Under the pieces are notes generated by a model. That model saw nothing but the letters and a program-made list of their open reading frames with translations. It ran no database searches and had not been told where the DNA came from. Below, piece by piece: positions 11,416 through 26,442 of a DNA stretch of 64,000 nucleotides (position 1 is the first letter of the stretch; every line of letters starts with the position of its first letter). The translations under genes were made by a program, and so were the position numbers. This stretch comes from Streptomyces sp. CA-210063 (GTDB lineage Bacteria > Actinomycetota > Actinomycetes > Streptomycetales > Streptomycetaceae): contig NZ_CP102512.1 of assembly GCF_024612015.1 (NCBI RefSeq), positions 4,092,001 to 4,156,000 of the forward strand. The letters run 5' to 3'.

Positions 11416-12222
11416 TTAACGCGAAGGCCGGTGAGCGGGTGTGCCGGGGGTGGGCGGCCGGGTTGCCGCGGAGGAGTGCTGCTTCGCGAGGGCGTGGGCG
11501 TGCGCCGGGGTCGCGCTCGTCGAGCGGAGGCGGGACGCGACCGGTGTGGGCATGCGGGTGCCGTGGGCGAGATCGGCGGTCACTCCGGAGCGGAGGGCAC
11601 CGAGCCGGGCCAGGTGGCGCCGCTGTTGCTCCGGGGTGAGCGACGCGACGTCGACGCTCGCGGCGGCCCGTACGGCCGCCGGGTGCGTCGGGATGGGGGA
11701 CGCGCCCTTCGTGGGGGCGCGGGAGGGGTCCAGTCCGGCGGAACGGAGCGCTGCGGCGCGTGCGCTCCAGGGGGTTTCTTCGGGGGTACGGCGGTGGGGG
11801 GTCTGGGGGCTGCCGGTGCCGCCTTGTTGAGCGGTTGCGCTCGGCGTATGGCTGAGGGGGCGCCAACTCATCGTGCCGGTGAGCTCGTTGAAGGTGACTT
11901 CGACTCGGGGGCGGGGGGTGGTGGGTTCGGGGGGCGGGTGTGGGGAGCGGCGGCGGGCTGCGTCGGGGAGGGGGGCGCGGGTGGGGGCGGGGGTACGGCG
12001 GGGTTCGGTGGTGTTCACGCCGGCGGCCGCCCCGGGGCGGCTGCCGAGTCGATCGTCCCCACCGGCCCTGGTGCTCCCGTCGGCCCGGCTGTCGCCGCCG
12101 ATCGGGTCGTGGCCGCTCAACCGCGGGTCCCGACCGGCCAGGCCGGTGAGGCCAGCCCGGATCCGTTCGTTGTCCGGGGCCGCGCCGCTGTCCCCGGGGG
12201 TTCGGTTCGGGTTACTGGCCAT
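11416..12222 (-). CDS. Uncharacterised Pro/Ala/Arg-rich protein, last gene of the T4SS-like left arm
   Basis: 268 residues, no signal peptide or membrane segment, mostly low complexity. Two short stretches look folded: VEVTFNELTGTMSWRPL in the middle and LTPEQQRRHLARLGALRSG near residue 190. Its start overlaps the end of the TPR gene by 11 bases, so it is translationally coupled and likely works with it. GC bias at third codon positions fits a real gene. I do not recognise a family; an accessory or substrate-handling role in the adjacent secretion-like system is only inference from position. Confidence 0.7.
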   Translation of the reverse strand: MASNPNRTPGDSGAAPDNERIRAGLTGLAGRDPRLSGHDPIGGDSRADGSTRAGGDDRLGSRPGAAAGVNTTEPRRTPAPTRAPLPDAARRRSPHPPPEPTTPRPRVEVTFNELTGTMSWRPLSHTPSATAQQGGTGSPQTPHRRTPEETPWSARAAALRSAGLDPSRAPTKGASPIPTHPAAVRAAASVDVASLTPEQQRRHLARLGALRSGVTADLAHGTRMPTPVASRLRSTSATPAHAHALAKQHSSAATRPPTPGTPAHRPSR

Positions 12223-15118
12223 GGGCGTAGGGGGCGCCGTCGAGGGCGCGGGCTCGTTCGGTGAGGCGGATCATGCGGGTGCGGGCCTTTTCGAGTTGTT
12301 CCACGTCGTCGGCGGCCGGGCCGGCGTCGGCGGCGAGTTCGGTCCAGACGGCGATCAGGTCGCGGCCCAGGTGCAGGCCCTGGAGCGGGTCGCGGACCGC
12401 GCGCCACGCCGCCGCCGCGCTCTGGATGTTGCCGTACGCCGCACGCTGGTCGCGCAGGCTGTGACGGAGGCCGGCCAGGTCGAGGGACAGGTGGAACGAC
12501 CTCAGCGCGTCACCGGCCAAGTAGGCGATGTACGCGGTCAGTTCGCGGAGCTTCAGCACCTCGGGGTGCTGCGGGCCGAGCGTCGCCGTCGCCTGGGAGA
12601 CGGTCTGCTCGGCCATCTCCGCGGCCTCCTGGATCCGGCCCAGTTTCACCGCCTCGTTGATCCGCGACACGGGCTCCGCGAACGGGGACGCCGTACCGCC
12701 GTCCTCCTCCGCCGTGTCCAGCACCGCCTCCGCCACCGCGTCGAACTCCCGCACGGGCGCGGGTTTCGGAGCGCTGTCCTCCGCCAGCACCTTCCACTCG
12801 GGAGCGGAGTAGGCGTCGGTGGCGGACTCCTCCGGAGGGGCGAGGGCAGGGGGTGCGGGTTCAGGGCTGGGGGTGGAGGCGGGCGGGTGGATCGGCGCCG
12901 GGGCCGGTGTCGGGGGCCAGGGCTGGGGCTCCAGCGTGGCGGGCCCCGACACCGGCACCGAGTCCGACGGGTGCGCCGGTGCGGGGGAAGGGGGCGCCTC
13001 GGGCATCGGCTCCGGGGTGGGGTCGTTGGCCGGGGCCGGGGGCCACGTCTGCGGGTTCAGGAAGACGTGCTTCGACTCCGACTCGCGGGAGGCCACGGCG
13101 TCCGACGGGTGGGCGGACGCGTGCCCCGGGGCCGCGTCCTGACTCGGAGGCCAGGGCTCGGGCTCCAGGGGCCCGGGCCTCGACTCCGGAACCGGTCCGG
13201 CGTCCGGCGGCGCGTGGGCTGAGTCCCGTGCCGGGGCCGCATTCTGGCCCGGGGGCCACGGTTGCGGCTCCAGTGACGTGGGGGCCGAGCGTGGTGGGTT
13301 CGCGGGGGTCTGGTTCGGGTGCCAGGTGTGGGGGGTCGTCGGGGGCGGAGGGAGGTCGGGGTCCATGGCCGGGCCGAACTCGCCCGTCGGGGGTGAGACC
13401 GTGCCGGCGGTCGGGCCCGCCTCCCGGGTGGGCTCGGGTGTGGGGGGCTTGCCCTCCGGGTCCACCTGGATGCCCGGCAGGGTCAGCGGGAGGCCCGGTG
13501 TGCGGGGCGGCTGCGCGAGCGGCCCGTCCTTCGGTTCCGGCACCGCGCGCAGCACGAACGTCGACGGCGCGACACCACCGGCCGCCGGCTCCGACGTCTG
13601 CCCCTGCTTCTCCTTCGCCGCCGTGAGCGGCATCGTCCGCGGCTCCCGCTTCGCCGGCGGGGCCGCCTGGGCCTGCTCCGGCTTCGCCTCGTGGGCGGTC
13701 GGCTCCGGCTCCGCCTCGGGAGCGGTCGGCTCCGGCGTGTGCGCGGGTACGGCCGTGGGCACGGACTTCGCCGCCGACAGCGGAAGCGTGCTGGGCTCCC
13801 GCCTCGGCCGCTCGGGCGCCGACGCAGAACCACCCGGCTCCGCCGAGAGCGACGCCGCCTCCCCCGCCGCCAACCGCATCGTGCTGGGCTCCCGGCCCGG
13901 CTGCGCCGGGACCTGCATGTCCCGCATGGATTGCGACTGCGGCTGCCGTTCGGGCTCTACCGACGGCTCCGGCTGAGGCTGCCACTGCGGCTGGGCCTGG
14001 GCCTGCGGCTGCACGTTCCGCTGAGCTTGCGGCTGCGGCTCGGGCTGCGCCGACGGCTCCGACTGCGCCTGAGCATGCCAGTGCGCCTGCGCGTCCGGGT
14101 GGGGCTCCGGCCGTGCCTGAGGCTGCGCCTGCGATTGCGCGTCCGGGTGGGGCTCCGGCCGTGCCTGAGGCTGCGCCTGCGATTGCGCGTCCGGGTGGGC
14201 TTGCGGCTGCCGCTCCGGCTGCGCCGACGGCTCCGGCCGTGCCTGCGCCTGCCACTGCGGCTGAGCCTGGGCCTGCGGCTGCACGTCCCGCTGCGGCTGC
14301 CGCTCGGGCTTCACCGGCAGCTCCGGCCGGGCCTGGGCTTGGGCCTGGGCCTGGGCCTGGGCCTGGGCCTGGGCCTGGGCCTGGGCCTGCCACTGAGGAT
14401 CCGGCTGCGGCCGCGCATGGGGCGCCGTTTCAGCCGGTGCACCCAACTGCCCCTGGGCAGCCGGAAGTTCAGCCCCTGACGCCGCCGACTCCGGTACCGC
14501 GCGCAACACATGCGTCGACCTGTCACGGCGTGGCGCGGTCGCCGGGCGCTCGGGCGGCTCCGGTGTCGACGACTGGGCCGCCCCTTCGCCGAGGTGTGCC
14601 GCCTCCGCCGTACCCGACCGCTCAGCCACAGGCGCAGCCGCAGCCGCAGCCCCGTGCTCACCCGCACCCGCAGCGGCATGTCCGGCGGCCGCACCCGCGT
14701 GCCTGCCCGCCGCCGCGCCCGAGCCCGGAACCGCAGCCACTCCCTCACTCACCGGCGCAGCACCAGAACCAGCCCCAAGGCCCCCCGGCACCCCCACGTA
14801 CCCCCTCGGCTCCCCCACCCGCACCGGCTCCCCGGTGTAGTGGCTGGAGCCGTCGACGTGGACCTGGAGGGGGACGACGTAGCCGATGCGTTCGTCGTGG
14901 ATGGTGGCGAGGACGGGGTGGCCGGTGGCGAGGGCGAGGCGGTGGAGATAGTCGAGGGCGGCGGTCTGGAGGGACGCCCCGGCGGCCGGGGGCACCGGCA
15001 TGCCGCCGACCGTCGCGTCGCCCTCGGCGGAGACGCGTACGTCGATCGGGGTCGGTCCGGCCGGCGCACGCCCCGCGCGCTTGAGTTCCCGCTTCTGTTC
15101 GCGGCTGAGTCGAGTCAT
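12212..15118 (-). CDS. Large TPR-like scaffold protein with disordered repeat-rich linker
   Basis: 968 residues in three parts. Residues 1-115 form a compact conserved-looking domain (MTRLSREQKRELKRAGR..., then HPVLATIHDERIGYVVPLQV). Residues about 115-795 are a disordered Pro/Gln/Ala/Glu-rich linker. Residues about 795-968 are helical and TPR-like (INEAVKLGRIQEAAEMAEQT, GPQHPEVLKLRELTAYIAYLAG). The linker carries recurrent short motifs: an (S/R)T-x-x-L-(R/S/T)A element at least five times, a P(Q/E)(P/T)WPP element four times, a 16-residue duplication and a (QA)n tract. No enzyme signature is visible. It ends the cluster with the 268-residue gene and begins 7 bases after the lipoprotein gene, so it belongs to that operon. 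A docking or adaptor role is inference. Confidence 0.85.
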   Translation of the reverse strand: MTRLSREQKRELKRAGRAPAGPTPIDVRVSAEGDATVGGMPVPPAAGASLQTAALDYLHRLALATGHPVLATIHDERIGYVVPLQVHVDGSSHYTGEPVRVGEPRGYVGVPGGLGAGSGAAPVSEGVAAVPGSGAAAGRHAGAAAGHAAAGAGEHGAAAAAAPVAERSGTAEAAHLGEGAAQSSTPEPPERPATAPRRDRSTHVLRAVPESAASGAELPAAQGQLGAPAETAPHARPQPDPQWQAQAQAQAQAQAQAQAQAQARPELPVKPERQPQRDVQPQAQAQPQWQAQARPEPSAQPERQPQAHPDAQSQAQPQARPEPHPDAQSQAQPQARPEPHPDAQAHWHAQAQSEPSAQPEPQPQAQRNVQPQAQAQPQWQPQPEPSVEPERQPQSQSMRDMQVPAQPGREPSTMRLAAGEAASLSAEPGGSASAPERPRREPSTLPLSAAKSVPTAVPAHTPEPTAPEAEPEPTAHEAKPEQAQAAPPAKREPRTMPLTAAKEKQGQTSEPAAGGVAPSTFVLRAVPEPKDGPLAQPPRTPGLPLTLPGIQVDPEGKPPTPEPTREAGPTAGTVSPPTGEFGPAMDPDLPPPPTTPHTWHPNQTPANPPRSAPTSLEPQPWPPGQNAAPARDSAHAPPDAGPVPESRPGPLEPEPWPPSQDAAPGHASAHPSDAVASRESESKHVFLNPQTWPPAPANDPTPEPMPEAPPSPAPAHPSDSVPVSGPATLEPQPWPPTPAPAPIHPPASTPSPEPAPPALAPPEESATDAYSAPEWKVLAEDSAPKPAPVREFDAVAEAVLDTAEEDGGTASPFAEPVSRINEAVKLGRIQEAAEMAEQTVSQATATLGPQHPEVLKLRELTAYIAYLAGDALRSFHLSLDLAGLRHSLRDQRAAYGNIQSAAAAWRAVRDPLQGLHLGRDLIAVWTELAADAGPAADDVEQLEKARTRMIRLTERARALDGAPYAHGQ
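14091..14198. repeat. 48-bp tandem repeat inside the TPR gene
   Basis: Two identical 48-bp units at 14091-14138 and 14139-14186, followed by the first 12 bases of a third. On the minus strand each encodes the 16 residues HPDAQSQAQPQARPEP. Perfect identity at DNA level indicates recent duplication. Confidence 0.95.
14331..14390. repeat. GCCTGG hexanucleotide array inside the TPR gene
   Basis: Ten consecutive hexamers, eight of them exactly GCCTGG, from 14331 to 14390. They encode an alternating Gln-Ala tract on the minus strand. In-frame length change by slippage would only alter linker length. Confidence 0.95.
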
Positions 15119-15125
15119 CGTTCCC

Positions 15126-15917
15126 TCACTCGGGTCGGGCAGAAGGAGAAGGAGATGGAGGTGTGGCGGAGGAAGCGGCGGGGTCGGACGTGGACTCCGG
15201 TGCCGACACCGCTGCCTCCACCGTACGCACCTCGTCCACCCGCCACGGCTCGCCCTTGCCCGGGCGAACCAGCTTCACGTACACCGTGGCCTGGGGACCG
15301 GTCCCCGTCCAGCCGTCGCGGCCGTACGCCTTGCCGTCGACGAAGAGGGCGCGGTAGGCGTCCCGCGCCGAGTCGGAGGGGGCGTCGCCGTCGTCGTCGA
15401 GTTCCACGTCGACGGTGGTCCAAGCCCGGTGCGCGGCCCAGGAGTTCCACTGCTCGCCGGCGCCGCTCGCGGGGCGGTACGAGCGCTCGGCCTTCGCCTT
15501 GGCGGCGGTGAACCAGCGCGCGGAGCGCAGTACGGCGTCGTGCGGGCTCGAGTCGTACTTCGTGTCGTAGCCGTACGCCACCTCGACCCAGGCCTGGGCG
15601 ACGGCGGTCGCGTCGGTCTCGTCGACGCCGGTGGGGCTCGGGACATGCGCGTCCGAGCCGAGCGGTTTGCCGGACGGCAGCGGCGCCTTGGGGGCGATGG
15701 ACGGCTCGGCCGAGGACGTGCCGCCGCCCGCCGTCTCGCGGTGGTCCTCCAGGCCGCACGCGGCGAGGACCGCGACACCGGTCACCGTCGCGAGCACGAC
15801 CGCGCCCGCCCTGCCGACCCTGGAGAGCCTGCCGACGCCACCGGCCCCGTATGGTCCGCCGCGCTCGTCACGCCCCCCGCGCCCTCCGCGTGCGCTGTGC
15901 ATCGCGTTCACTCTCAT
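15126..15917 (-). CDS. Putative lipoprotein with NTF2/VirB8-like outer domain
   Basis: 263 residues from the ATG at 15917, which directly follows GAGGAGGGGG; a longer frame to 16025 has no such signal. A hydrophobic stretch (VGRAGAVVLATVTGVAV) ends in a lipobox LAAC with Cys54, so the protein should be lipid-anchored outside the membrane. After a Ser/Pro-rich linker, residues about 85-230 show alternating helix/strand pattern and a length typical of NTF2-like domains (AVAQAWVEVAYGY... to EPWRVDEVRTVEAA), as in VirB8/TcpC-type conjugation proteins. It lies between the muralytic enzyme and the TPR gene of the cluster. Alternatively it is simply an uncharacterised lipoprotein. Confidence 0.78.
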   Translation of the reverse strand: MRVNAMHSARGGRGGRDERGGPYGAGGVGRLSRVGRAGAVVLATVTGVAVLAACGLEDHRETAGGGTSSAEPSIAPKAPLPSGKPLGSDAHVPSPTGVDETDATAVAQAWVEVAYGYDTKYDSSPHDAVLRSARWFTAAKAKAERSYRPASGAGEQWNSWAAHRAWTTVDVELDDDGDAPSDSARDAYRALFVDGKAYGRDGWTGTGPQATVYVKLVRPGKGEPWRVDEVRTVEAAVSAPESTSDPAASSATPPSPSPSARPE

Positions 15918-16032
15918 CCCCCTCCTCACCTCAGTGTCCTTCCTCGCCGATCGCGTCCTCCACACCGATCGTCCCGTCCACGCTGCCCGTGTCGTCCACG
16001 CCGGCCGCCGCGTCCCGTCACCCACGTCGTCA

Positions 16033-17067
16033 CTACAGCCCCAACCACGGCGCCGGATCGACGTACTTGTCGTTCTGCATCACCTCGAAGTGGAGATGCG
16101 CGCCCGTCGAGTAGCCCGTCGAGCCGACCGGGCCGATGCGTTGACCGACCTTCACCTTGTCGCCGGCCTTGACGTTGAGTCCGGACAGCATGTGGTTGTA
16201 CGTCGTGGAGACGCGGTCGCCGTTGACGGTGCCGTGGGAGATGACGACGCGGTTGCCGTAACCGTTGGTCCAGCCGGCGAACGTGACCTCGCCGTCGCGG
16301 GCCGCGAGGACCGGCGTGCCGGCGGCCGCGCCGAAGTCGATGCCGGTGTGGAGCTTGCGGACGCCGAGCGTGGGGTGCATGCGCCAGCCGTACGGGGAGG
16401 TCACGGGCGGATTGCCGGAGAGCGGCATCGCCATCTGCCTGCCCTCGGGAAGCTTGCCCGGCGGGTCGTCCACCGACTCGTACTTGGCGATGAGGGACTT
16501 GATGCGGGCTACGTAGTTCTGGGTCTCGGTGTAGGGCGGGATGCCGCCGTACTTCTGCACGGCGCCCGGGCCCGCGTTGTACGCCGCGAGCGCCAGGTCG
16601 AGGGTCTCGCCGGTGGCCTGGCCGCTGTCCTTGTAGCCCTGGACCTGTTTGGCGAGGGCGCAGTCGTAGCGGCCCTGGGCCATGATCGCGTCGCCCGGGT
16701 CGTACGGGGACACCCGGCCGTTGCCGTCGTCGTCCCTGCCCCAGCTCGGCCAGGTGCCGGGCATGAACTGGCTCAACCCCTCGGCCCCCACCGGGGACTT
16801 GGCGTTCGGGTTCCAGCCCGACTCGGCCTCGATCTGCGCGGCGATCACGGCCGGCTTGATGACGTCGCACATGCTGCCCGCCTTGAGGACCCACGGCACG
16901 TACTCCGCCGGTACCTGGCCCGTCTTGAGGCCGCCGCCGACGCCCTGTTCCTCCGCGTCGGCCTCGCCGCCGCCGCTCACCGCGACCATCATGACCACCG
17001 GCATCATCACGGCCGCCACGCAGCCGCCGACGACCCAGGTCGTGACGGACCCTCCCCCGTTGGACAT
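16033..17067 (-). CDS. Bifunctional peptidoglycan hydrolase: lytic transglycosylase (SLT) plus M23 endopeptidase
   Basis: 344 residues. One membrane segment at about 10-31 anchors it. Residues about 60-195 form an SLT domain with catalytic Glu82 (AESGWNP), GLSQFMPGTW and AYNAGPG. Residues about 212-344 form a LytM/M23 metallopeptidase with zinc ligands His240, Asp244 (HTGIDFG) and His326 (HLHFE), and catalytic His292/His324. The combination cuts both glycan strands and peptide crosslinks, and is the usual VirB1-type enzyme that opens the wall for T4SS assembly in Gram-positives. First gene of the minus-strand arm, divergent from the secretion genes at 17385 onwards. Confidence 0.95.
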   Translation of the reverse strand: MSNGGGSVTTWVVGGCVAAVMMPVVMMVAVSGGGEADAEEQGVGGGLKTGQVPAEYVPWVLKAGSMCDVIKPAVIAAQIEAESGWNPNAKSPVGAEGLSQFMPGTWPSWGRDDDGNGRVSPYDPGDAIMAQGRYDCALAKQVQGYKDSGQATGETLDLALAAYNAGPGAVQKYGGIPPYTETQNYVARIKSLIAKYESVDDPPGKLPEGRQMAMPLSGNPPVTSPYGWRMHPTLGVRKLHTGIDFGAAAGTPVLAARDGEVTFAGWTNGYGNRVVISHGTVNGDRVSTTYNHMLSGLNVKAGDKVKVGQRIGPVGSTGYSTGAHLHFEVMQNDKYVDPAPWLGL

Positions 17068-17384: not shown

Positions 17385-17933
17385 GTGGTGGAGAGCGGTG
17401 ATGCGGTGATGCAGCCAGGCGCAGGACAGGCGGCGGCCGGGCCGGAGATCTGGCTGCGTGGGCCGGTCATGGAACCTCAGGCGCGGCCCCAGGACCCGCC
17501 ACCCCAGGCGGCCGCGAGCCCGCGGCGGTTCTCCTGGGTCGCCACGCACGGCGGCGCCGGGTCCACCACCCTCGCCACGGTCTTCGGCGGCCATGACGCG
17601 GGCCGCAACTGGCCGCGCCCCGAACACGGCGAACCGTCGTCGGTGCTGCTGGTGGGGCGTACGCACGCCGCCGGGCTCGACGCGGTCTCGCACACGCTGG
17701 ACATCTTCCGGCGGGGCGACGCGCCGCCGGGGCTGGACCTCGACGCGATCGTGCTGGTCGCGGACGCGCCCGGCCGGCTGCCCCGGCAGCTCGTGCAGCG
17801 CGTGAAAGTGATCAGTTCCGTGATCGACGTCTATCGCGTGCCGTGGGTGCCCGCCTGGCGCACCGGCGACCTCACCGGCCCGCCGCCGCGGGAGAGCGCG
17901 GCGCTGGCCCGTCTCACCGGGAGGACCCCATGA
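17385..17933 (+). CDS. Protein with degenerate P-loop (ParA/MinD-like remnant), first gene of the plus arm
   Basis: 182 residues if started at the GTG at 17385; GTG 17406 or ATG 17409 are possible shorter starts and no ribosome binding site is decisive. Residues 50-64 read WVATHGGAGSTTLAT, which has the shape of a deviant Walker A (KGGxGKTT) with both lysines missing. LDAIVLVADAPGRLPRQLVQRV resembles the later strand-helix of such ATPases. So the fold may be ParA-like but nucleotide hydrolysis is doubtful. Its stop overlaps the next start (ATGA), so it is co-translated with the first pilin-like gene. Confidence 0.8.
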   Translation: MVESGDAVMQPGAGQAAAGPEIWLRGPVMEPQARPQDPPPQAAASPRRFSWVATHGGAGSTTLATVFGGHDAGRNWPRPEHGEPSSVLLVGRTHAAGLDAVSHTLDIFRRGDAPPGLDLDAIVLVADAPGRLPRQLVQRVKVISSVIDVYRVPWVPAWRTGDLTGPPPRESAALARLTGRTP

Positions 17934-18190
17934 GCGACACCCTCTTCGCCGCCGCGACAACCCTGGCCGGGCCTCCGGCGGTGGTCACCAACGAGCTCAA
18001 CTACGTCCTGAACATCCTCGCCTGGCTGGTCACCGCGGCCGGTGTGTGCGGTCTGCTGATCGTCGGCTCGCGGATGGCGATCTCCCTGAGGTCCGGGGAG
18101 GGCGACGAGCATCTCAGCCAGTTCGCGATGGTCATGGGCGCCTGCGTCATCGGCGCGACGGCGGGGCCGATCGTGGGGTTCGTGCTGTAG
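17930..18190 (+). CDS. Small two-helix membrane protein, VirB2/TrbC pilin-like (paralogue 1)
   Basis: 86 residues. Two hydrophobic helices (about 26-52 and 65-86) flank a short polar loop LRSGEGDEHLSQ. This is the size and layout of mature VirB2/TrbC pilins. It shares RxGEGxEH, M-V-x-G-x-CV and ATAGPxVxFV with the protein at 18590. ATG at 17930 overlaps the previous stop by 4 bases, with GGGAGGA upstream. In a T4SS the pilin or inner-membrane subunit would polymerise or line the channel; here that is inferred from size, topology and neighbours. Confidence 0.85.
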   Translation: MSDTLFAAATTLAGPPAVVTNELNYVLNILAWLVTAAGVCGLLIVGSRMAISLRSGEGDEHLSQFAMVMGACVIGATAGPIVGFVL

Positions 18191-18589: not shown

Positions 18590-18886
18590 ATGCTGAACGC
18601 GATAGCCGCCAAGGCACACCAGTCCATCTACCTGGCCGACGGCACGGTCCCCAACCCGAACCGGGACGCCCCGGCCGAACTCACCGGCAAGGTCGACACC
18701 GTGCTCGGCATCGTCGCCTGGGCCGGCACCGCCGCGGGCGTCGCGGGTGTGCTGATCACCGGCGCGATGATGGCGATCTCCATGCGCCGCGGCGAGGGCT
18801 CGGAGCACATGGGCCGCCTCGGCATGGTCCTCGGCGGCTGTGTCCTGGTCGCCACCGCCGGCCCGCTCGTGAACTTCGTCTTCTAG
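18590..18886 (+). CDS. Small two-helix membrane protein, VirB2/TrbC pilin-like (paralogue 2)
   Basis: 98 residues: an N-terminal extension (residues 1-35), helix about 36-62, polar loop MRRGEGSEHMGR, helix about 77-98. Nearly every loop and second-helix position matches the 86-residue protein at 17930. GGGGAGAAA precedes the ATG. Two such paralogues suggest either a hetero-oligomeric pilus/channel or alternative pilins. It is followed after 31 bases by the VirB8-like gene, so it probably leads the operon for the core channel genes. Confidence 0.85.
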   Translation: MLNAIAAKAHQSIYLADGTVPNPNRDAPAELTGKVDTVLGIVAWAGTAAGVAGVLITGAMMAISMRRGEGSEHMGRLGMVLGGCVLVATAGPLVNFVF

Positions 18887-18917: not shown

Positions 18918-19709
18918 ATGCTGAACTCCGGCCGGGCCCAAGGGGGCAGCGGGGAGTGGGAGCAGCCGTTCTGGCAGCAGCGGGGCTGGATCCTGTCGGC
19001 CGGGTTCCTGGTGGTGCTGCTCGTCCTCGCGGTCCTCTTCGCGGTGACGGGCAACGGCTCCGGGCAGCCGACCGGTTCGTCCGGCTACCCGGAGCCGACC
19101 TCGACGTCCAAGGCGTCGGACTCGGCCTCGGACTCCGGTGACGGCAAGGGGACTTCGGACACCCGGCCCGCCGGCTGCCGCACCGACGACCGCGACCAGG
19201 CCAAGCCGACCGAGGCGCCGCGCGACTTCCACTGGAAGGCCAACGGCACCGGCCTGGTCCCGGTCTCGAAGGCGGCGGGCCCGCTCACGTACGACGGTCC
19301 GGTCTGGTCCTGCTTCGCCCACACCCCGATGGGGGCCGTCATGGCGGTCCACTCCATCACCGACCACCTCAGCTACGACGGCTGGCGCAAGGTCGTCGAC
19401 CAGCAGGTCGTGCCGGGCGCGGGCCGTGACGCGCTGATCGCGAGCCGCGCCCAGGAGGCCGACAAGTCCACCACGGGCTCGCCGGACGCCGGTGGCTACG
19501 CCGGTTTCACGGTCCTGTCGTACGACGAGACACAGGCGACCGTGATGGTCCTGGTGCGCGGCATGGGCGACGGCGGCTTCGGCTCCGCCTCGGTCACCGT
19601 GCGCTGGCAGGACGGCGACTGGAAGCTCTCCCCCGACCCGGACGGCACGGTCTACAGCGGTGTGTCGCAGGTCAGCGGCACCGACGGCTTCGTCACCTGG
19701 GAGGCGTGA
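18918..19709 (+). CDS. Single-pass membrane protein, candidate VirB8-like component
   Basis: 263 residues: a cytoplasmic N-terminus, one membrane helix at about 24-46, a Ser/Thr/Asp-rich linker (about 48-85), then an extracytoplasmic domain of about 170 residues ending with strands SASVTVRWQDGDWKLSPDPDG. Topology and size match VirB8/TcpC assembly factors, and the order pilin - VirB8-like - VirB6-like - VirB4-like fits T4SS operons. No sequence signature proves it. Two Cys (about 87 and 135) may form a disulfide. GAAAGGGGGAG precedes the ATG; the next gene starts 1 base after the stop. Confidence 0.8.
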   Translation: MLNSGRAQGGSGEWEQPFWQQRGWILSAGFLVVLLVLAVLFAVTGNGSGQPTGSSGYPEPTSTSKASDSASDSGDGKGTSDTRPAGCRTDDRDQAKPTEAPRDFHWKANGTGLVPVSKAAGPLTYDGPVWSCFAHTPMGAVMAVHSITDHLSYDGWRKVVDQQVVPGAGRDALIASRAQEADKSTTGSPDAGGYAGFTVLSYDETQATVMVLVRGMGDGGFGSASVTVRWQDGDWKLSPDPDGTVYSGVSQVSGTDGFVTWEA

Positions 19710-19710
19710 G

Positions 19711-20892
19711 ATGGCCTGCTCATGGAAGATCTACGACTGCCTGATCGAAGAGGGCGGCAAGCAGTTCACCGAGGGTGCCGTGGTCGTCTTCGCCAAGGCG
19801 ATCGGCGACGGCGCGGCGGAGGTGCTCAAGGCGCTCAACGGCGTCTGGCTGAACATCGACGTGGAGAACCCGGCGGGAAACGGCGGCGGCCACGGTCAGG
19901 CGGCTGCGGACAGTCCCATCGGACTGATCACGGCGGAGGTCAACTGGATCGTCGGCTATGTGGCGGTGGCCTCGTTGCTGCTGGCCGCGATACGGATGGC
20001 CGTGGACCGAAAAGGCCAGTCGATGAGACAGGCGTTCATGGGGATGTGGAAGGTCATCCTCGTCGGCGCGGCATCCGTGCCCGTGGTCACGGCACTCATG
20101 ACGGCGTCGGACGCGTACGCCAGGGACGTGTACGAGAGATCCGACCTCGGGGACAAGGCCTCCGAGATGCTGGGCGTGCTGACGCTCAACCAGCCCGGTC
20201 TGGTGCTGATCTTCGGTCTGCTGGTGATGCTGTCGAGCTTCGTGCAGATCGTGCTGATGTACATCCGCATCGGCGTCCTCATCATGCTGGTCGGCACGTT
20301 GCCGCTGGCCGCCGCCTCCTCGATGACCGGGTGGGGCGACGGCTGGTGGAAGAAGCACATCGGCTGGCTCGCGGCCTGGCTGCTGTACAAGCCGGCGGCG
20401 GCCCTGATCATCTACTCGGCCACCTCGATGACCAAGGACACCAAGGATCTGGACTCGGTCATCGCCGGCATGGGCATGCTGATCATGGCCGTGTTCGCCC
20501 TCCCCGCCCTGCTCAAGCTGATCGTCCCCGCCACGGCCGCCCTCGGCGGCACCTCCGGCGGCACGGTCGCGCTCAACGCCGCCAACAACATGGCGTCCGG
20601 CGCGGTCAGCATCGCGGGCGGAGCGGTCGGCGCCGCGGGCCAGGCCGGCGGCGGGGGCGGCGGCGGTTCCTCGGCCCCCCAGGGCTCTCCCTCCTCGGGC
20701 GCGGGTTCCTCCGCGGGCGGAGCCGGTGGCGCCGGCGCGGCGGCCGGCACCGCCGCCGCGGGCGCGGCCACGGCGGGCGCGGCCGTCGCGGTCCAGGCCG
20801 CCGCGGTCGTCGTACAGACCGGCATGCAGGCGGCGTCGGAGGTCGCGGGCTCCCTCGACGACAACGACGGGATGAAGGGCCACAACCAGTAG
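19711..20892 (+). CDS. Polytopic membrane protein, VirB6/TrbL-like
   Basis: 393 residues. Five to six hydrophobic helices lie between residues 72 and 280 (for example GLVLIFGLLVMLSSFVQIVL and IGVLIMLVGTLPLAAA), with a conserved-looking GWGDGWWKKHIGWLAAWLLYKP turn that is typical of TrbL/VirB6 channel proteins. The C-terminal about 110 residues are Gly/Ser/Ala-rich and disordered. The ATG at 19711 follows GGGAGGCGTGAG. Expected role: central inner-membrane part of the translocation channel. A palindrome starts 4 bases past the stop (20897). Confidence 0.87.
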   Translation: MACSWKIYDCLIEEGGKQFTEGAVVVFAKAIGDGAAEVLKALNGVWLNIDVENPAGNGGGHGQAAADSPIGLITAEVNWIVGYVAVASLLLAAIRMAVDRKGQSMRQAFMGMWKVILVGAASVPVVTALMTASDAYARDVYERSDLGDKASEMLGVLTLNQPGLVLIFGLLVMLSSFVQIVLMYIRIGVLIMLVGTLPLAAASSMTGWGDGWWKKHIGWLAAWLLYKPAAALIIYSATSMTKDTKDLDSVIAGMGMLIMAVFALPALLKLIVPATAALGGTSGGTVALNAANNMASGAVSIAGGAVGAAGQAGGGGGGGSSAPQGSPSSGAGSSAGGAGGAGAAAGTAAAGAATAGAAVAVQAAAVVVQTGMQAASEVAGSLDDNDGMKGHNQ

Positions 20893-20896
20893 GGGC

Positions 20897-20970
20897 CCCG
20901 CGCCCCGTCAGGGGCGCGGGACTGTATCGATGTGCGGCTCCGCCGCGTGGGCGCGAGCAACCACGACCGA
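20897..20970. repeat. Dispersed palindromic element, copy 3
   Basis: CCCGCGCCCC at 20897-20906 and its reverse complement at 20911-20920 flank GTCA. A flank reading TATCGATGTGCGGCTCCG and GCGCGAGCAACCAC follows to about 20970, as seen with many Streptomyces copies of this element. Placed right after a stop codon, it likely acts as a terminator or attenuator inside the cluster. Confidence 0.75.
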
Positions 20971-21052
20971 CCCGCAGTCGCCATCGCTCAGCACCACCCG
21001 AGCTCGTAGGCACTCAGAACTCAGCGAACTACAGCCGGAAGAAGGAACCCCC

Positions 21053-22546
21053 ATGTCCACCGACGCCCTCACGCGTCCCACCTACGGAAACTGGCGCAGA
21101 CCCCGCCGCCCCGGCCTGGGCCCGCTGGGCCTCCTCGGCACGGTCGTCGCCTTCGGCGGACTCCTGGTCGCACTGCTCGCCTCGCTGGTCTCGCTGATGG
21201 CCGCGATCCTCGTCCTCATCCCCCTCGGCCTCTTCCTCGCCCCGCTCGCGCTGCGCACGGTGGACGGCCGCAACATCTACCAGGTGGTCGCGGTGCGTAT
21301 CGGTTGGCTCAGGCGCAAGGCGAACGGCTCCACCACGTACGTCTCCGGCCCCCTCTCCAAGCGCCCGGGTGGCCGCTACCACCCGCCGGGCCTGCTCGCC
21401 CGCACCAAGATGTACGAGGGCCGTGACGCCTACAACCGCGCCTTCGGGGTGCTGCACCACCCCGGCCGCAACCTCTGCACGGTGGTCCTGGCCTGCGAGC
21501 CGGACGGCGGTTCGCTGGTCGACCCCGAGCAGGTCGACATCTGGGTGGCGTCCTGGGGCGACTGGCTCGCCCGGCTCTCGCACGAGCCGGGACTGCGCGG
21601 CGCCCAGGTCGTCGTCGAGACCGCGCCGGACACCGGGACGCGGCTGGCGGCCGAGGTCCTGCCGCGCATCTCGCCGGACGCCCCGGCCGCCGCCCGCGCG
21701 GTGATGGAGGAGGTCGTCGCGCGCTACCCGTCCGCCTCCTCGGAGATGCACACGTACATCGCTCTGACCTACGGCCCCACCGGCGGCCCCAAGCGGGACA
21801 TCGAGGACGTCATCACCGACCTGTCCATGCGGCTGCCCGGCCTGCTGTCGGGCCTCGTCGCGGCCGGCGGCGGCTCCGCGTACCCGCTGTCCGCCGATCG
21901 GCTCGCGGAGATCGTCCGCGTGGCGTACGACCCCGCCGTCGCCCCCGATGTGCTGAGCGCGCGGGCCGAGCACTCGACCACCGGCCTCGACTGGGCGGAC
22001 GCGGGCCCGGCGGCCGCGGTCGAGTCGGTGCAGGCGTACAAGCACGACTCGGGTGTCTCGCGGACGTGGATGCTGACGCTGGCGCCGCGCGGCACGGTCC
22101 GGTCGAGCGTGCTGCGGGGCCTGCTGGAGCCCGCGACGGGCACCCGCCGCAAGCGGGTCTCGCTGATCTACCGCCCGATCGACCCGGCGACCTCCGCTCG
22201 CATCGTCGAGGCCGACCGTCGTACCGCGCACTTCATGGCGGGCTCGAAGCGTGGGCTGGTCCAGGCGCGGGCCAGTTCCGAGATGCAGGCGGCGGAGCAG
22301 ACGGCGGCCGAGGAGGCGGCGGGTGCCGGGCTGGTGGAGTTCTCGCTGATGGTGACGGTCACCGTGGACAGCGAGGAGCAGCTGCCGGACGCGGCGATCA
22401 CCGTACGCAACCTCCAGGCGTCCTCCCGCATCCTGATGCGCCCCGCCGACCGTATGCAGGCCTCCGCGTTCACCTGCACGCTCCCCGTGGGCCTGCTGCC
22501 GTGGGAGCACACCCTCGTTCCGTACCAGATCCGGGAGGCGCTGTGA
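21053..22546 (+). CDS. SCO6880-family protein: VirB3/PrgI-like membrane part plus VirB4 N-terminal-like domain
   Basis: 497 residues. Residues about 20-66 are two hydrophobic helices separated by a short turn, as in VirB3/PrgI. The remaining 430 residues are soluble and end with the pattern that precedes the ATPase domain in VirB4 proteins: an E/A-rich helix (QTAAEEAAGAGLVEFSLMVT), strands, and a final F-T-C-T-LPVGLLPWEHT segment. It has no P-loop; the matching ATPase domain is in the next gene, whose GTG overlaps this stop (GTGA). I infer a fused VirB3-VirB4N protein split from VirB4C. GAAGGAA precedes the ATG at 21053. Confidence 0.85.
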   Translation: MSTDALTRPTYGNWRRPRRPGLGPLGLLGTVVAFGGLLVALLASLVSLMAAILVLIPLGLFLAPLALRTVDGRNIYQVVAVRIGWLRRKANGSTTYVSGPLSKRPGGRYHPPGLLARTKMYEGRDAYNRAFGVLHHPGRNLCTVVLACEPDGGSLVDPEQVDIWVASWGDWLARLSHEPGLRGAQVVVETAPDTGTRLAAEVLPRISPDAPAAARAVMEEVVARYPSASSEMHTYIALTYGPTGGPKRDIEDVITDLSMRLPGLLSGLVAAGGGSAYPLSADRLAEIVRVAYDPAVAPDVLSARAEHSTTGLDWADAGPAAAVESVQAYKHDSGVSRTWMLTLAPRGTVRSSVLRGLLEPATGTRRKRVSLIYRPIDPATSARIVEADRRTAHFMAGSKRGLVQARASSEMQAAEQTAAEEAAGAGLVEFSLMVTVTVDSEEQLPDAAITVRNLQASSRILMRPADRMQASAFTCTLPVGLLPWEHTLVPYQIREAL

Positions 22547-24027
22547 GCAAGTCCACCACCCCACGACCCCGTACGGCGCCCCCGCGTGGCTGGTTCGGCC
22601 CCGGCGGCGGCCAGGTCGGGCATGTCGACCCGCCCGCGCTGTGGCGTGCGACGACGGTCCAGGCCTGCGGCCTGTGGCCCTTCGCGGCGGGCTCCGGCGC
22701 CCCCATGACCGGGGTGCCGCTGGGCCAGCACCTCCACACGGGCGCCACGGTCTGCGGCGACCCCATCTCCTGGTTCACCCGCGCCCGTTACATCTCCAAC
22801 CCGTCGCTCTTCATGCTCGGCATGCCGGGCCTGGGCAAGTCCACGCTGGTCAACCGGATGCTGATCGGCATGGCGGCGACCGGTATCACCCCGCTGGTGC
22901 TGGGCGACCTGAAGCCCGACTACGCCGACACCGTACGGGCGCTGGGCGGCCAGGTGATCTCCATCGGGCGCGGCGTGGGCGGCATCAACGTCCTGGACCC
23001 CGGCGCGATGGGCGAGGCGGCGGCACGGATCGGCGGCGAGCGGGGCCGGATCCTGGCGGCGGAGGCGCACGGCCGCGTCCTGAACATGGTCGCGGCGCTG
23101 ATCACGATCGTCCGGGGCCGCCCGATGGACGACCACGAACAGTCCGTCCTCTCGGCCTGCCTCCACCACCTCGCGGCACGTACGAAGCCGGGCCGGCCGC
23201 CGCTCCTGCCCGACCTGCTGAAGGTGCTCGACGAGGGCCCGGACCGGGTCCGCGCGGTCACGCTGGACCGGGGCGACGTGGCGCGCTACCAGGAGGCGGT
23301 GGACCCGCTCCACCGCTCACTGCTGGGCGTGCTGGACGGCCCGCTCGGCGACACCTTCGCCTCCGAGACCTCCACCCGCATCAACCCGGCCTCGCCCGCC
23401 GTCTGCGTCGACATCTCCCGCATCGGCGAGGCGGACACCCAGCTCACGGCGGCGGCGATGCTGGCGGCGTGGTCGGACGGCCTGGGCACGGTGGCGGCGG
23501 CCCACGCGCTCGCGGACGCGGGCCTCGCCCCGCAGCGCTGGTTCTTCACGGTGCTGGACGAGTTGTGGCGCCCCCTCCGCGCCGCCTCCGGCATCGTCGA
23601 ACGCATCGACGCCCTCACCCGTCTCAACCGGTCCCTGGGCCTCGGCGACGCGAAGATCACGCATACGTTGAAGGACGCGGAGGCGCTGGGCAGCGAGGCC
23701 GACCGGGCGAAGGCGCGCGGCTTCGTCGAGCGCGCCGGGATGGTGGTGTGCGCCGGCCTCCCCCGTACGGAGATGAGGGAACTCGGCGAGATCGTGGGGC
23801 TGTCGGAGCGCGAGATCGACCTCGTGTCGTCGTGGTCGTCCCCGCCGGGCTGGGCCAGCACGGGGGGTAATGAGGAGCCGCCGGGTCGTGGGCGCTTCCT
23901 GATCAAGGTGGGCGGCCGTCCTGGGATCCCGATCAAGGTGTCGATCACGGACACGGAGAGGGATCTGCACAACACGAACACGAGGTGGACCCCGAAGCCG
24001 ACGCTGTCGAAGGCGGGGCGCCTATGA
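22543..24027 (+). CDS. VirB4/TraC-like ATPase (C-terminal ATPase half)
   Basis: 494-residue RecA-fold ATPase. Walker A is GMPGLGKST at 93-101, Walker B is FFTVLDELW with Asp339/Glu340. The segment around DALTRLNRSLGLGDAKITHT and VVCAGLPRTEMRELGEIVGL corresponds to the late VirB4 core. It lacks the usual 350-residue VirB4 N-terminal region, which is present in the overlapping upstream gene. VirB4 energises pilin extraction and substrate transfer at the cytoplasmic face. GTG start within the upstream stop. A gap of 268 bases with a large palindrome separates it from the TraG-like gene. Confidence 0.9.
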   Translation: MSKSTTPRPRTAPPRGWFGPGGGQVGHVDPPALWRATTVQACGLWPFAAGSGAPMTGVPLGQHLHTGATVCGDPISWFTRARYISNPSLFMLGMPGLGKSTLVNRMLIGMAATGITPLVLGDLKPDYADTVRALGGQVISIGRGVGGINVLDPGAMGEAAARIGGERGRILAAEAHGRVLNMVAALITIVRGRPMDDHEQSVLSACLHHLAARTKPGRPPLLPDLLKVLDEGPDRVRAVTLDRGDVARYQEAVDPLHRSLLGVLDGPLGDTFASETSTRINPASPAVCVDISRIGEADTQLTAAAMLAAWSDGLGTVAAAHALADAGLAPQRWFFTVLDELWRPLRAASGIVERIDALTRLNRSLGLGDAKITHTLKDAEALGSEADRAKARGFVERAGMVVCAGLPRTEMRELGEIVGLSEREIDLVSSWSSPPGWASTGGNEEPPGRGRFLIKVGGRPGIPIKVSITDTERDLHNTNTRWTPKPTLSKAGRL

Positions 24028-24076
24028 GCTCGGGGGGTGCGGTTGTCGGGCGACTGCGGGTGTGCGGGGGCCGGCC

Positions 24077-24146
24077 GCGCAGTTCCCCGCGCCCCTTAAA
24101 AGCATGGGCCGCGCCCGGAGTCTTTCAGGGGCGCGGGGAACTGCGC
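24077..24146. repeat. Dispersed palindromic element, copy 4 (20-bp perfect arms)
   Basis: GCGCAGTTCCCCGCGCCCCT at 24077-24096 is exactly mirrored at 24127-24146, with a 30-base loop and a GAGCAACCAC flank. It lies between the VirB4-like and TraG-like genes. It may end transcription or stabilise the upstream mRNA; the TraG-like gene would then need its own promoter in 24150-24290, where nothing obvious is seen. Confidence 0.85.
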
Positions 24147-24295
24147 GAGCAACCACACACCCACCCGCACCCGCCCGACAACCCACACCCCCCGACCTCT
24201 CGCGCGTGCGGGGTCGAGGGGCGGCAGCCCCTGGGGACGGGACGGGTAGGGGCGGCGGGGGCGAGAGAAATCAACCACCTGACGGGGGATACGAA

Positions 24296-26047
24296 ATGCC
24301 CACACGCAAACAACAACACACCACCGGCGACGACCTCCTGCCCTGGATCATCCCCACCGCCGCCCTACTCATCGGCACCCTCTTCCTCGGCGCCTGGCTC
24401 GGCGGCACCCTGGCCGCAGCCCTCACCGGAACCGGCTGGGACCCACCCCCCTTCACCCTGGAGACACTGAAGACCCTCGTGACGGACGGCCCGGCAGCCG
24501 TATGGCCGACGGCGTCACCCGGCGCGATCACCACGGGCATGGGCACGGTCTTCGGCACCACCCTCACCCTCCTGGTCACCCTCGCCGTACTGATCCGCCG
24601 CCGAGGCCGGAGGCCCAGCGGCCTCGCCGGCCGCCGCGAACTCTCCGCCCTCCTCCCGAAGGGCGCCACCACCAGGGCCCGCCAACTCCGCCCGTCCCTG
24701 CCGAAGTCGGGCAAGCTCCCCCCGGACGACACGGGCAACCTCCTCGGCGACCTGGAACCCGGCGGCCCGGAACTCCGCAGCAGCTACGAGGACGTGGAGC
24801 TGGACCTGATGGCCCCGAGGGCCGGCAAGTCCACCGGCATCGCGGTCCCCCGCGTCCTGCGCGCCCGCGGCAGCGTGCTGCTGACCTCGAACAAGGCGGA
24901 CGTGTACAGCGTGACGCGCGCGGAGCGCGAACGCGCGGGCACCGTATGGACGTTCGACCCACAGGGCATCGCGCACACCCCGCGCGGCCTGTGGTGGGAC
25001 ATGCTCGCCGACGCGGCCACCATCGAGGGCGCCCGCCGCCTGGCCGGCCACTTCGTCGGCGCGGTCAACGACGACGCCTCCAAGCGCGACTTCTGGATCT
25101 CGGCGGCCCAGAACACCCTCACGGCCCTGTTCCACGCGGCCAACCGGGGCAAGCGGCAGGTCGACGAGGTACTGGCGTGGCTGGCGGACCCGGCCGACCG
25201 TACGCCGGTCGACCTGCTCCGCGACGCGGGCATGTCGGCCCTCGCCGACCAGCTCCAGGGCACCGTCCAGGGCGCGGTGGAGACCCGGGACGGCATCTAC
25301 GAGACGGCCCGCCAGTGCGTGGCGTGCCTGCTCGACCCGGCGATCGCGGCCTGGGTGAGCCCGGACCCCGAGCTGCCGCAGTTCCTGCCCGAGCGGCACG
25401 CGCTCTCGTCCGACACGCTCTATCTGCTCTCCAAGGACGGCGGCGGCTCGGCGGCCGGTGTCATCGCCGCGTGCGCGGACTCCGTCCTGCGCGCGGGAGT
25501 CGTGGCGGCCGAGCGGATGGGCGGCCGCCTGGACCCGCCGATGACGGCCGTGCTCGACGAGGCCGCCAACGTCTGCCGTATCTCCGACCTCCCGGACCTC
25601 TACTCCCACTTCGGCTCGCGCGGCATCAACGTCGTGACCCTGCTGCAGAGTTACCGCCAGGGCACACGGGTGTGGGGCGAGGCCGGGATGGACGCGCTGT
25701 GGGGCGCCGCCACCATCAAACTGCTCGGCGCGGGCCTGGACGACGCGGACTTCGTGGAGAAGGTCTCGCGGCTGGTCGGCGAGCACGACGTGTCCACGGT
25801 GAGCTACTCGCGCGGCAAGGACGGCCGTTCCCGCTCCACCTCGTACCGCCTCGAACGCATCCTGCCCGCCGACCGTATCCGCGCCCTCCCCAAGGGCACC
25901 GCCCTCCTCCTCGCCACCGGCGTCAAGCCCGCCCTCGTCCGCCTGCGCCCCTGGTACGCCGAACCCGGCGCCGACCGCATCGCACGCGCGGCCCAGGCCG
26001 AGGTCAAGGCCATCACGGCCCGGGCGGCGGAAGGGATCGTCCGATGA
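24296..26047 (+). CDS. VirD4/TraG-like coupling ATPase
   Basis: 583 residues. Two N-terminal membrane helices (about 15-42 and 80-100) anchor a RecA-like ATPase. Walker A is MAPRAGKST at 172-180 and Walker B is TAVLDEAANVC with Asp421/Glu422. Also typical of TraG/VirD4: LVTSNK-like strand (VLLTSNKADVY), TFDPQG and VVTLLQSYRQG. These hexameric ATPases select and pass substrates to the channel. The ATG at 24296 is supported by GACGGGGGA upstream and because it starts just before the first helix. It overlaps the DUF4913 gene by 4 bases. Confidence 0.93.
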   Translation: MPTRKQQHTTGDDLLPWIIPTAALLIGTLFLGAWLGGTLAAALTGTGWDPPPFTLETLKTLVTDGPAAVWPTASPGAITTGMGTVFGTTLTLLVTLAVLIRRRGRRPSGLAGRRELSALLPKGATTRARQLRPSLPKSGKLPPDDTGNLLGDLEPGGPELRSSYEDVELDLMAPRAGKSTGIAVPRVLRARGSVLLTSNKADVYSVTRAERERAGTVWTFDPQGIAHTPRGLWWDMLADAATIEGARRLAGHFVGAVNDDASKRDFWISAAQNTLTALFHAANRGKRQVDEVLAWLADPADRTPVDLLRDAGMSALADQLQGTVQGAVETRDGIYETARQCVACLLDPAIAAWVSPDPELPQFLPERHALSSDTLYLLSKDGGGSAAGVIAACADSVLRAGVVAAERMGGRLDPPMTAVLDEAANVCRISDLPDLYSHFGSRGINVVTLLQSYRQGTRVWGEAGMDALWGAATIKLLGAGLDDADFVEKVSRLVGEHDVSTVSYSRGKDGRSRSTSYRLERILPADRIRALPKGTALLLATGVKPALVRLRPWYAEPGADRIARAAQAEVKAITARAAEGIVR

Positions 26048-26442
26048 CCGCCATGGCCCCCGAACAGGCCCCCGCCGCCCCGCCGTTCATCCTCTACCTC
26101 GACGGCGCCGAGTACACCGACGAGATGCACGCTCTGGCCGTCTGGGTCGGCGATCTGCTTCTCCCGGTCTACGGCCGCGAGGTCACCTCCCAGCAGCCCT
26201 GGTGCCCGCGCTGGTGGGAGCACCTGGAGGCGGTGGCCCGGCTGCACGCCCTCTGGCTGGCCTGGCAGGAACTCACCGACCCCACGGCGGGAGCGTCCGG
26301 CCCGGCGGTGTGGCACCGTGACCACCTCGGCCCCGTCATGGCCGAACTACGCTCCCCCAGCGGCCCGTTCGCGGGCTGCAAGGCGGGCGCCCACCGGGCG
26401 AAGCAGCCGCCGACGGTCGAGCCGTACGGGACGGGATCTTGA
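26044..26442 (+). CDS. DUF4913 protein
   Basis: 132 residues, cytosolic. The Trp-rich core ([55 protein letters not shown]) is the DUF4913 pattern. This family is common next to TraG-like genes on actinobacterial plasmids and integrative elements. Its ATG overlaps the TraG-like stop, so it is made together with the coupling ATPase and may be an adaptor or chaperone for substrates. Function unknown. Confidence 0.88.

Follow-up and report, generated by a model that had tools for sequence, protein, structure and literature searches.

Nearly all known functions of the type IV secretion systems (T4SS) of Gram-positive bacteria are in DNA transfer, which the available text of a 2025 review calls surprising, and the same text names effector translocation by such systems as a question of long standing for which one strong case exists (PMC12857230). 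Here, a stretch of 64,000 nucleotides from Streptomyces sp. CA-210063 (hereafter the window; positions 4,092,001-4,156,000 of a single 10.86-Mb contig) was analysed. It contains a cluster of 13 open reading frames (ORFs) in two divergent arms at window positions 11416-26442, designated A1 to A4 (leftward, 11416-17067) and B1 to B9 (rightward, 17409-26442). The cluster is T4SS machinery with VirB4, VirD4/TraG and VirB1-like parts, and its relatives carry, directly behind the genes B8 and B9, changing genes whose products share a C-terminal tail. An earlier note, made from the letters of the window without database searches, had described a resident, relaxase-less T4SS-like apparatus, perhaps for protein export.

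Related chromosomal systems have been described in Streptomyces coelicolor. According to the available text of Xie et al. (2009), the operon cmdABCDEF with the VirB4-like CmdB is required for normal sporulation and segregation, and phenotypes in sporulation, segregation and pigment are described for cmd mutants, the cmdA mutant being normal in appearance (PMC2782261). In the same text SCO6878, SCO6880 and SCO6881 are said to resemble cmdB, cmdC and cmdD, removal of SCO6878 or SCO6881 gave no such phenotype, S. coelicolor without the cmd genes transferred an SLP2-derived plasmid unchanged, and SLP2 genes related to cmd were needed for plasmid transfer (PMC2782261). Like the window cluster, cmdABCDEF (SCO4126-4131) is a chromosomal operon of related VirB4, VirB6 and SCO6880 types for which that text reports no relaxase, but identity is about 21-24% and cmd is present in all nine Streptomycetaceae examined. 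The SCO6871-6884 cluster is the founder of the NCBIfam family SCO6880_fam, against which B6 reaches 542 bits (NF042935, E 1.6e-162); mutants of two of its genes are without visible phenotype (PMC2782261).

In the genome of the window the published cmdB primers match a separate locus, L116 (from 5,710,000), with 27 and 29 of their 31 bases, and the CmdB ATPase encoded there shares 21% identity with B7 (E 4e-9). An SCO6880-family copy of about 180 bits, attributed to cmd on the grounds of L116 and L118, occurred in 9 of 9 Streptomycetaceae among 10 genomes, and not in the Micromonospora genome. Orthology of the window cluster to cmd was rejected on the ATPase identity and the separate locus, and the cmd sporulation phenotype therefore does not carry over. 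The statement in the earlier note that no function had been assigned to such clusters overlooks the work on the paralogous cmdABCDEF, though the phenotype does not transfer. As a side observation, the names of two published primers look swapped: in L116 (6444-7880) the Walker A site near CmdB residue 90 is matched by the primer called K404A, and the one called K90A matches near residue 410.

Two systems linked to protein export serve as further comparisons: the antibacterial X-T4SS of Xanthomonas and Stenotrophomonas, whose effectors carry the C-terminal region XVIPCD, and the 89K T4SS of Streptococcus suis, whose cargo is a protease that is not known to have a tail in common with other proteins. 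The X-T4SS is likewise chromosomal, and its effectors, unrelated in activity, have in common a C-terminal region and often a neighbouring gene (PMC8262851, in the part available); it differs in being Gram-negative with a VirB7/9/10 core, whereas the present cluster belongs to a monoderm and its relatives show a short disordered tail, an immunity role being putative. The 89K system is a Gram-positive T4SS credited with protein export, but is located on a pathogenicity island (PMC12857230). Additionally, an alarmone synthetase without signal peptide is described beside TrwB, TrwK and TrwI genes of Streptomyces albireticuli in the accessible part of a further paper (PMC12691689), which may hint in the direction of protein export.

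Variable cargo slot behind B8 and B9

For comparative analysis the best 80 of 133 named loci were used, and those with the full gene set including A3 were designated Group I. Group I relatives contain extra genes on the same strand directly behind B8 and B9, and these encode different proteins in different species, namely FolD-like proteins (PF02882, E 3.1e-18), zeta-type kinases (PF06414, E 7.7e-11), GT4-conflict proteins (PF20706, E 7e-106) and a Rossmann-type protein of about 900 amino acids (aa) without Pfam match. L023 and L044 additionally have zeta-type kinase genes located between B5 and B6. A gene of about 150 aa, conceivably with an immunity function, precedes the FolD-like cargo gene in L004, L006, L007, L013, L023 and L044; its counterpart in L012 is a version of 191 aa. 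A search for the FolD cargo in 37 genomes returned one copy beside the cluster (G048), one without the tail beside another T4SS type (G101) and a stop-broken match of 33% (G015). Downstream of B8/B9 in L018, L037, L017, L019, L023 and L044, variable predicted lipoproteins of about 440-570 aa without Pfam match accompany the cargo, conceivably as surface partners or immunity proteins.

The slot turns over quickly. In L004 it spans about 2.1 kb, with one gene of 152 aa and one for a tailed FolD-like protein, compared with about 0.14 kb in the window, and the blastn comparison showed a clean presence or absence of the 2.1-kb cassette, so that closest relatives gain or lose it cleanly. No remnant of a cassette was detected in the window slot by tblastn with seven cargo proteins (best E 1.2). 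When the cargo label was placed on the Group I tree, 10 changes were needed (minimum 3), compared with an average of 12.3 for shuffled labels, of which 8 in 200 were as low; the turnover is therefore fast, yet somewhat clustered. The gene order on plasmids and the annotation 'SCO6880 family' are known already, the changing slot and common tail being new; no description of either for this cluster was found in the literature searched, most subscription journals being outside its coverage.

A C-terminal tail shared by unrelated cargo proteins

The FolD-like, zeta-kinase and 900-aa Rossmann cargo share a C-terminal tail (17 tails aligned) consisting of PVAxAARLRSG, a stretch rich in proline and glycine, and a final arginine. 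In pattern form it reads [VIL]-A-x-A-A-[RK]-L-[RQ]-[SG], followed by about 30-45 residues rich in P, G and A with arginine last. A first count with a regular expression (21 of 21 cargo proteins vs 0 of 139 background proteins) is circular, because the cargo set had been chosen partly by eye. Leave-one-family-out profiles were therefore scored against 1,699 C-termini. Compared with proline-rich controls, the held-out families were recovered with p 4.9e-5 for Rossmann (area under the curve, AUC, 0.97), 6.7e-5 for zeta (0.92) and 1.5e-3 for FolD (0.79), and compared with all controls with p 3.3e-5 for Rossmann and 6.8e-4 for zeta, rows within a family being related to one another. The full profile placed a previously unconsidered protein 18th of the 1,699, namely a 368-aa protein of the left arm of L017 (1557-2663), located between A2 and A3. 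At a threshold of 15 bits, 15 of the 23 Group I loci have a downstream protein with the tail, most of these being training rows.

For a genome-wide search, 150 candidates per genome were scored in 31 genomes, 16 of them cluster-bearing. All 18 matches at E<=0.01 lie inside these loci, and 12 of the 16 cluster-bearing genomes but none of the 15 others had such a match. Fifteen of the matches were training rows, and the remaining three were the second zeta kinase of L023, a Rossmann protein beyond L007 and the left-arm 368-aa protein of L017; one training row, the zeta kinase of L044, was missed. Just above the cut-off, an orphan ORF of G137 (E 0.0104) and matches at E 0.015-0.034 in four control genomes were found. 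Cargo outside the training set scored 40.1 bits for the FolD protein of G048, 34.2 for the Rossmann protein of G114 and 33.9 for the Rossmann protein beyond L007 (G131). The tail is thus common to at least three unrelated protein families, and in the searched genomes its matches are confined to these loci. The G137 ORF (C6:404272-404421; L164 3139-4449) encodes 436 aa with a tail-like C-terminus of 18.9 bits, lies away from the cluster and may possibly be an orphan substrate. In the genome of the window, six weak matches (best E 0.04) were rejected as orphan tailed proteins, since the four that were translated proved to be shadow ORFs.

Tails of the Rossmann and FolD families were also surveyed beyond the cargo slots. 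At least 15 bits were reached in 24 of 71 Rossmann homologues and in 53 of the 120 FolD homologues listed (229 found). By profile and by eye the Rossmann set was divided into 27 proteins with the tail described above (tail I), 7 with tail II, which has an RARR-like end, 34 with tail III, which mostly ends in G-x-G-D, and 3 unassigned. On a Micromonospora plasmid of MOBP type a Rossmann gene is the next gene on the strand after the DUF4913 gene, with a NUDIX gene on the opposite strand in between; it thus occupies the position of the cargo slot, and its product has yet another tail.

T4SS identity of the machinery

An AlphaFold model of B6 was calculated from 32 aligned rows (mean predicted local distance difference test score 80.5; predicted template modelling score 0.80) and compared with solved structures by Foldseek. 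All 14 matches at E<=1e-3 were chains of R388 T4SS entries (7o41, 7o42, 7o43, 8rtb, 8rtd); 4 of the 14 are named TrwK/VirB4 alone (7o42, 7o43) and the rest are inner-membrane-complex entries containing VirB4. The best E value was 2.5e-9 (TrwK/VirB4), with query template modelling scores of 0.42-0.49 over the best 14 matches and identities of 11-12%, and the first match outside T4SS was an oxidoreductase at E 3.3e-3. With N-terminal helices at 23-46 and 48-66, the modelled B6 can be read as the N-terminal half of VirB4 preceded by fused VirB3-like helices, split from the ATPase half B7. No match to B6 was found among phages, and a phage origin was rejected.

B7 matches NCBIfam VirB4 models with E values of 2.4e-9 and 4.1e-8, which lie far below the whole-protein cut-offs of these models, and is present as a single copy in its own genome at E<=1e-3. 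B8 exceeds the Pfam cut-offs of PF12696 (E 8.9e-32) and PF02534 (E 6.2e-19) and by sequence matches TrwB in the PDB (E 5.5e-5). A4 contains SLT (E 8.5e-15) and M23 (E 3.6e-32) domains behind its membrane segment. The lipobox cysteine of A3, Cys54, is invariant across 18 alignment rows, and A3 also adjoins the hydrolase gene on the S. canus plasmid described below (tblastn). For B5, six membrane segments were predicted by hydropathy, and no sequence match to any T4SS protein in the PDB was obtained.

With these results most of the parts named in the earlier note could be confirmed: the T4SS-type machine itself by its Pfam and NCBIfam families and the B6 structure, the VirB4-like and VirD4/TraG-like ATPases, the SLT and M23 wall hydrolase, the DUF4913 protein, the VirB3/VirB4N-like protein at 21053, for which, as for the protein at 19711, structure prediction had been proposed as a test and which returned T4SS similarity, and the divergent 13-gene layout with essentially the same ORFs, all of which are intact. 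For its TPR scaffold a sub-threshold match was obtained at the C-terminus of A2, which is possibly a scaffold or adaptor. The VirB8-like identity proposed for B4 and A3 is putative; neither had a significant match among solved structures, and profile comparison detected no relation between the two.

Table 1. Features of the T4SS-type cluster in the window
Feature	Position	Strand	Size	Assignment and basis
A1	11416..12222	-	268 aa	No Pfam or NCBIfam match; fast-evolving, dN/dS 0.55 (one comparison)
A2	12212..15118	-	968 aa	P/Q-rich; TPR_12 at C-terminus, E 0.006, below cut-off
A3	15126..15917	-	~263 aa	Predicted lipoprotein (alignment, tblastn, hydropathy)
A4	16033..17067	-		VirB1-like wall hydrolase: N-terminal membrane segment, SLT and M23 (Pfam, hydropathy)
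B1	17409..17933	+		DUF6668, PF20373 E 1.1e-7 (ORF taken from 17385)
B2	17930..18190	+	86 aa	Pilin-like, two membrane segments (hydropathy)
B3	18590..18886	+	98 aa	TrbC/VirB2-like pilin, PF04956 E 6.8e-4, below Pfam cut-off
B4	18918..19709	+	263 aa	Single membrane segment with outer domain; putatively in VirB8 position (alignment)
B5	19711..20892	+	393 aa	Polytopic membrane protein, VirB6-like by topology and position only
B6	21053..22546	+		SCO6880 family: two helices (VirB3/PrgI-like) and VirB4 N-terminal domain, without ATPase core
B7	22543..24027	+		VirB4 ATPase half, Walker A Lys99
B8	24296..26047	+		VirD4/TraG coupling ATPase, Walker A Lys178
B9	26044..26442	+		DUF4913, PF16259 E 6.1e-29
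Empty cargo slot	26434..26573	.	~0.14 kb	Blastn comparison with L004

Distribution, insertion site and selection

The distribution was determined in 121 Streptomyces genomes (120 drawn and the window's own), with 12 candidates scored per genome. B7 had a match at E<=1e-20 in 51 of them; identity was at least 95% in 4, 85-86% in 7 (one genome having both) and 72% in 1, which gives 11 of 121 at 72% or more. The flanking genes were matched far more widely, the M28 peptidase gene in 106 and the ABC membrane gene in 116 of the 121 genomes, paralogues included. The distance between the two flanking genes was measured in 42 genomes picked for having both near each other on one contig. It was 57-4,831 bp in the 40 genomes that have no cluster at this site, compared with 19,066 bp in the window and 28,709 bp in G114, where the cluster also lies between these genes. 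The cluster is therefore an insertion, and the word resident used in the earlier note needs correcting, as the cluster is patchy and lies between genes that are near each other in genomes without it.

In a B6+B7 tree of 89 rows built by a quick method, Group I formed one clade with 98-99% support (Shimodaira-Hasegawa-like approximate likelihood ratio test), and each chromosomal site corresponded to one subclade. The M28/ABC site accounted for 16 labelled rows, all within one clade of 19 rows supported at 99%, and three other sites, labelled from shared neighbours and Pfam tallies, were represented by two rows each in one subclade each. Both plasmid relatives of at least 84% identity that were placed in the tree (2 of 10) fell outside Group I. 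Site-bound inheritance with rare relocation agrees with this tree, and a currently mobile element does not.

Ratios of nonsynonymous to synonymous substitution rates (dN/dS) between the window and L003, L004, L007 and L013 were 0.05-0.06 for B7, 0.10-0.11 for B6 and 0.19-0.23 for B8, so purifying selection acts on the motor genes. Values were 0.15-0.35 for B5, 0.14-0.28 for A4, 0.31-0.59 for B4, 0.32-0.52 for A3 and 0.42-0.51 for A2 (three comparisons), with A1 as given in Table 1. By these estimates the core is conserved and the outer or accessory proteins are fast-changing. The recurrence of the gene order in related loci and on plasmids, taken with the low dN/dS values, is more than chance. 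Two Group I loci, L005 (S. scabiei) and L061 (S. lycii), have no match to B8 or B9 and no tailed cargo of at least 15 bits; coupling protein and cargo are missing together in these two cases only.

A 597-aa ORF at 28566-30359 (+), located between FMN reductase and ABC transporter genes, matches PF07282 (Cas12f1/TnpB C-terminal) below the cut-off (E 8e-4); it is TnpB-like by eye and was not found in the other loci compared.

Relatives on plasmids and the question of mobility

The family of the cluster is the transfer region of actinobacterial plasmids. Among 72,556 plasmid records, 471 contained a B7 match, with identities of 80-90% in 10 and below 60% in 461. The 47.6-kb plasmid of S. canus (NZ_CP107988.1) and a Glutamicibacter plasmid (NZ_CP127169.1) have the gene order of the cluster, and so does a 708-kb linear plasmid, in which no relaxase was present in the 41 kb seen. 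With the S. canus and Glutamicibacter transfer regions and that of the Micromonospora plasmid NZ_CP108881.1 the cluster shares a wall hydrolase on one strand, followed by DUF6668, a pilin-like protein, two unknowns, the SCO6880 family, the VirB4-type ATPase, the TraM-recognition VirD4 protein and DUF4913. The S. canus and Micromonospora plasmids differ in having a relaxase near by, on the S. canus plasmid together with MobC about 2.4 kb beyond DUF4913, whereas the chromosomal clade has none; the chromosomal clade, unlike the plasmid regions, has two pilin-like genes and tail-I cargo. In Group II loci (e.g. L028, L031, L036) NlpC/P60 proteins (12 of 82 scanned) are often encoded near by, as are thaumatin-like proteins (7) and glycosyl hydrolases, and some downstream proteins end in other basic disordered C-termini.

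No PF03432 relaxase was found in the whole genome of the window, other relaxase families and TraB/FtsK not having been searched, which agrees with the absence of a relaxase noted earlier for that type. One plasmid relaxase used as tblastn query gave no match in the window and matched only itself among the loci. No integrase was present among the 25 of 66 Pfam families listed for 83 proteins from the neighbourhood of Group I loci, and no relaxase turned up beside the cluster in relatives. A tRNA-Glu predicted by ARAGORN (15588-15671, +) was rejected as an integration site, as it lies antisense within A3, has no Rfam match at the gathering score and is spurious.

The earlier note had argued that the cluster is not mobile as no relaxase is present, and had named a relaxase and oriT near the cluster in related strains, with a patchy distribution, as signs of an integrative element. 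The patchiness was observed and the relaxase beside relatives was not. That the chromosomal lineage has remained at one site over many speciations is upheld by the tree and the low dN/dS values; the argument from the missing relaxase is weak, because the same gene order occurs on plasmids with a relaxase and, in the stretches viewed, without one.

Proposed protein export and its alternatives

A slot with interchangeable proteins that share a tail suggests protein rather than DNA export, and the cargo evidence favours the possibility raised in the earlier note. The reading to which we lean, with modest confidence, is a chromosomal lineage of actinobacterial conjugation T4SS whose relaxase was lost or never present and which was recruited to protein export, the cargo being chosen by its tail via B8. 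The VirB4 motor would be split into the membrane half B6 and the ATPase half B7, which with the VirB6-like B5, the pilin-like B2 and B3, the wall hydrolase A4 and the lipoprotein A3 would form the channel. The VirD4-like B8 would admit the substrates, in sister species the slot proteins behind B8 and B9, and would read their common disordered C-terminal tail as export signal. The cargo would be delivered outward, either to adjacent hyphae or to the cell exterior, and the zeta-type kinases as putatively toxic cargo may point to antagonism or to conditioning of the mating partner.

Several observations weigh against this reading. In the window strain the slot holds no gene and tailed cargo was not detected, so that putative substrates differing in activity but joined by one C-terminal signal occur in relatives and not in the window itself; downstream cargo of at least 15 bits is also missing in L003, L005, L019, L020, L021, L024, L039 and L061. 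A1, whose orthologues end proline-rich by eye, was rejected as a tailed protein, its rank with the tail profile being 1458 of 1,699. The FolD family was marginal against all controls (p 0.049), the GT4 cargo was not recovered (p 0.094 and AUC 0.77 against proline-rich controls, p 0.55 against all controls), and the leave-one-out p-values do not represent independent tests, given the relatedness noted above. Tails of low complexity are easily over-read, and the case for protein export is built from sequence throughout. A tailless FolD-like gene adjoins another T4SS type in S. aureus, and a relaxase with the tail-I motif was not seen in the two plasmid relaxases inspected. On the tree of the Rossmann body the tails require 2 changes, which is the minimum; the tails follow the phylogeny of the body and are therefore not freely swapped within this family, and frequent swapping was ruled out by this fit. 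P0024, a Rossmann protein with tail II, is encoded on the NBC_01450 plasmid with a Group II T4SS about 46 kb away, and this distance weakens the case for a T4SS-specific tail there.

A defective integrative and conjugative element (ICE), that is, a conjugative remnant in slow decay after loss of integrase, oriT and relaxase, is an unlikely explanation in our judgement, although the family is a plasmid conjugation region, the distribution is patchy, the loci of S. scabiei and S. lycii are without B8 and B9, and Bringel-type surveys of Streptomyces, in the part available, place chromosomal T4SS without an integrase, a coupling protein and/or a relaxase in this category (PMC9513070). Such decay is at odds with 13 intact ORFs, with dN/dS of 0.05-0.2 for the ATPase-related genes, with maintenance at one site throughout a 19-row clade of 99% support, and with positioned, changing cargo cassettes. 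Equally improbable to us is a machine that moves DNA. The cluster could mobilise the linear chromosome or linear plasmids end first, or act in trans for relaxase-bearing plasmids, with the tailed cargo as escorts; its closest non-chromosomal kin reside on giant linear plasmids without a relaxase in the stretch seen, and the slot of conjugative plasmids holds a Rossmann body adjoining a MOBP relaxase. Polyvalent or escort proteins of conjugative elements, zeta-type kinases included, have been described (PMC5512222, in the part available), and the need for SLP2 genes related to cmd in plasmid transfer agrees with such a role, but the loss of cmd left transfer of the SLP2-derived plasmid unchanged (PMC2782261), and the genome is without a PF03432-type relaxase.

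A developmental machine like cmd, i.e. a membrane complex for aerial growth, septation or chromosome segregation, could be proposed from the cmd mutant phenotypes (PMC2782261) and the relatedness of the ATPase families, yet it is very improbable: cmd orthologues are present in all nine Streptomycetaceae examined vs this cluster in 4 of 121 genomes, ATPase identity is 21%, and the more similar SCO6871-6884 cluster showed no such phenotype on removal of SCO6878 or SCO6881 in the text available (PMC2782261).

Besides the recruitment of this cluster to protein export, a wider proposition is put forward more tentatively and with some doubt. It holds that a protein-exporting Gram-positive T4SS lineage arose from a relaxase-driven plasmid system and has an interchangeable cargo slot and a lineage-specific tail, and that a Rossmann body of about 800 aa bears at least three tails, one per body clade, as if matched to different machines. 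The loci of this family are found in genetically tractable and non-pathogenic antibiotic producers, those with cargo including S. populi (L010), S. ardesiacus (L018) and S. californicus (L044), in which the effector question of Gram-positive T4SS would be directly addressable, and the tail would provide a means to find further substrates and to separate recruited T4SS from defective ICEs.

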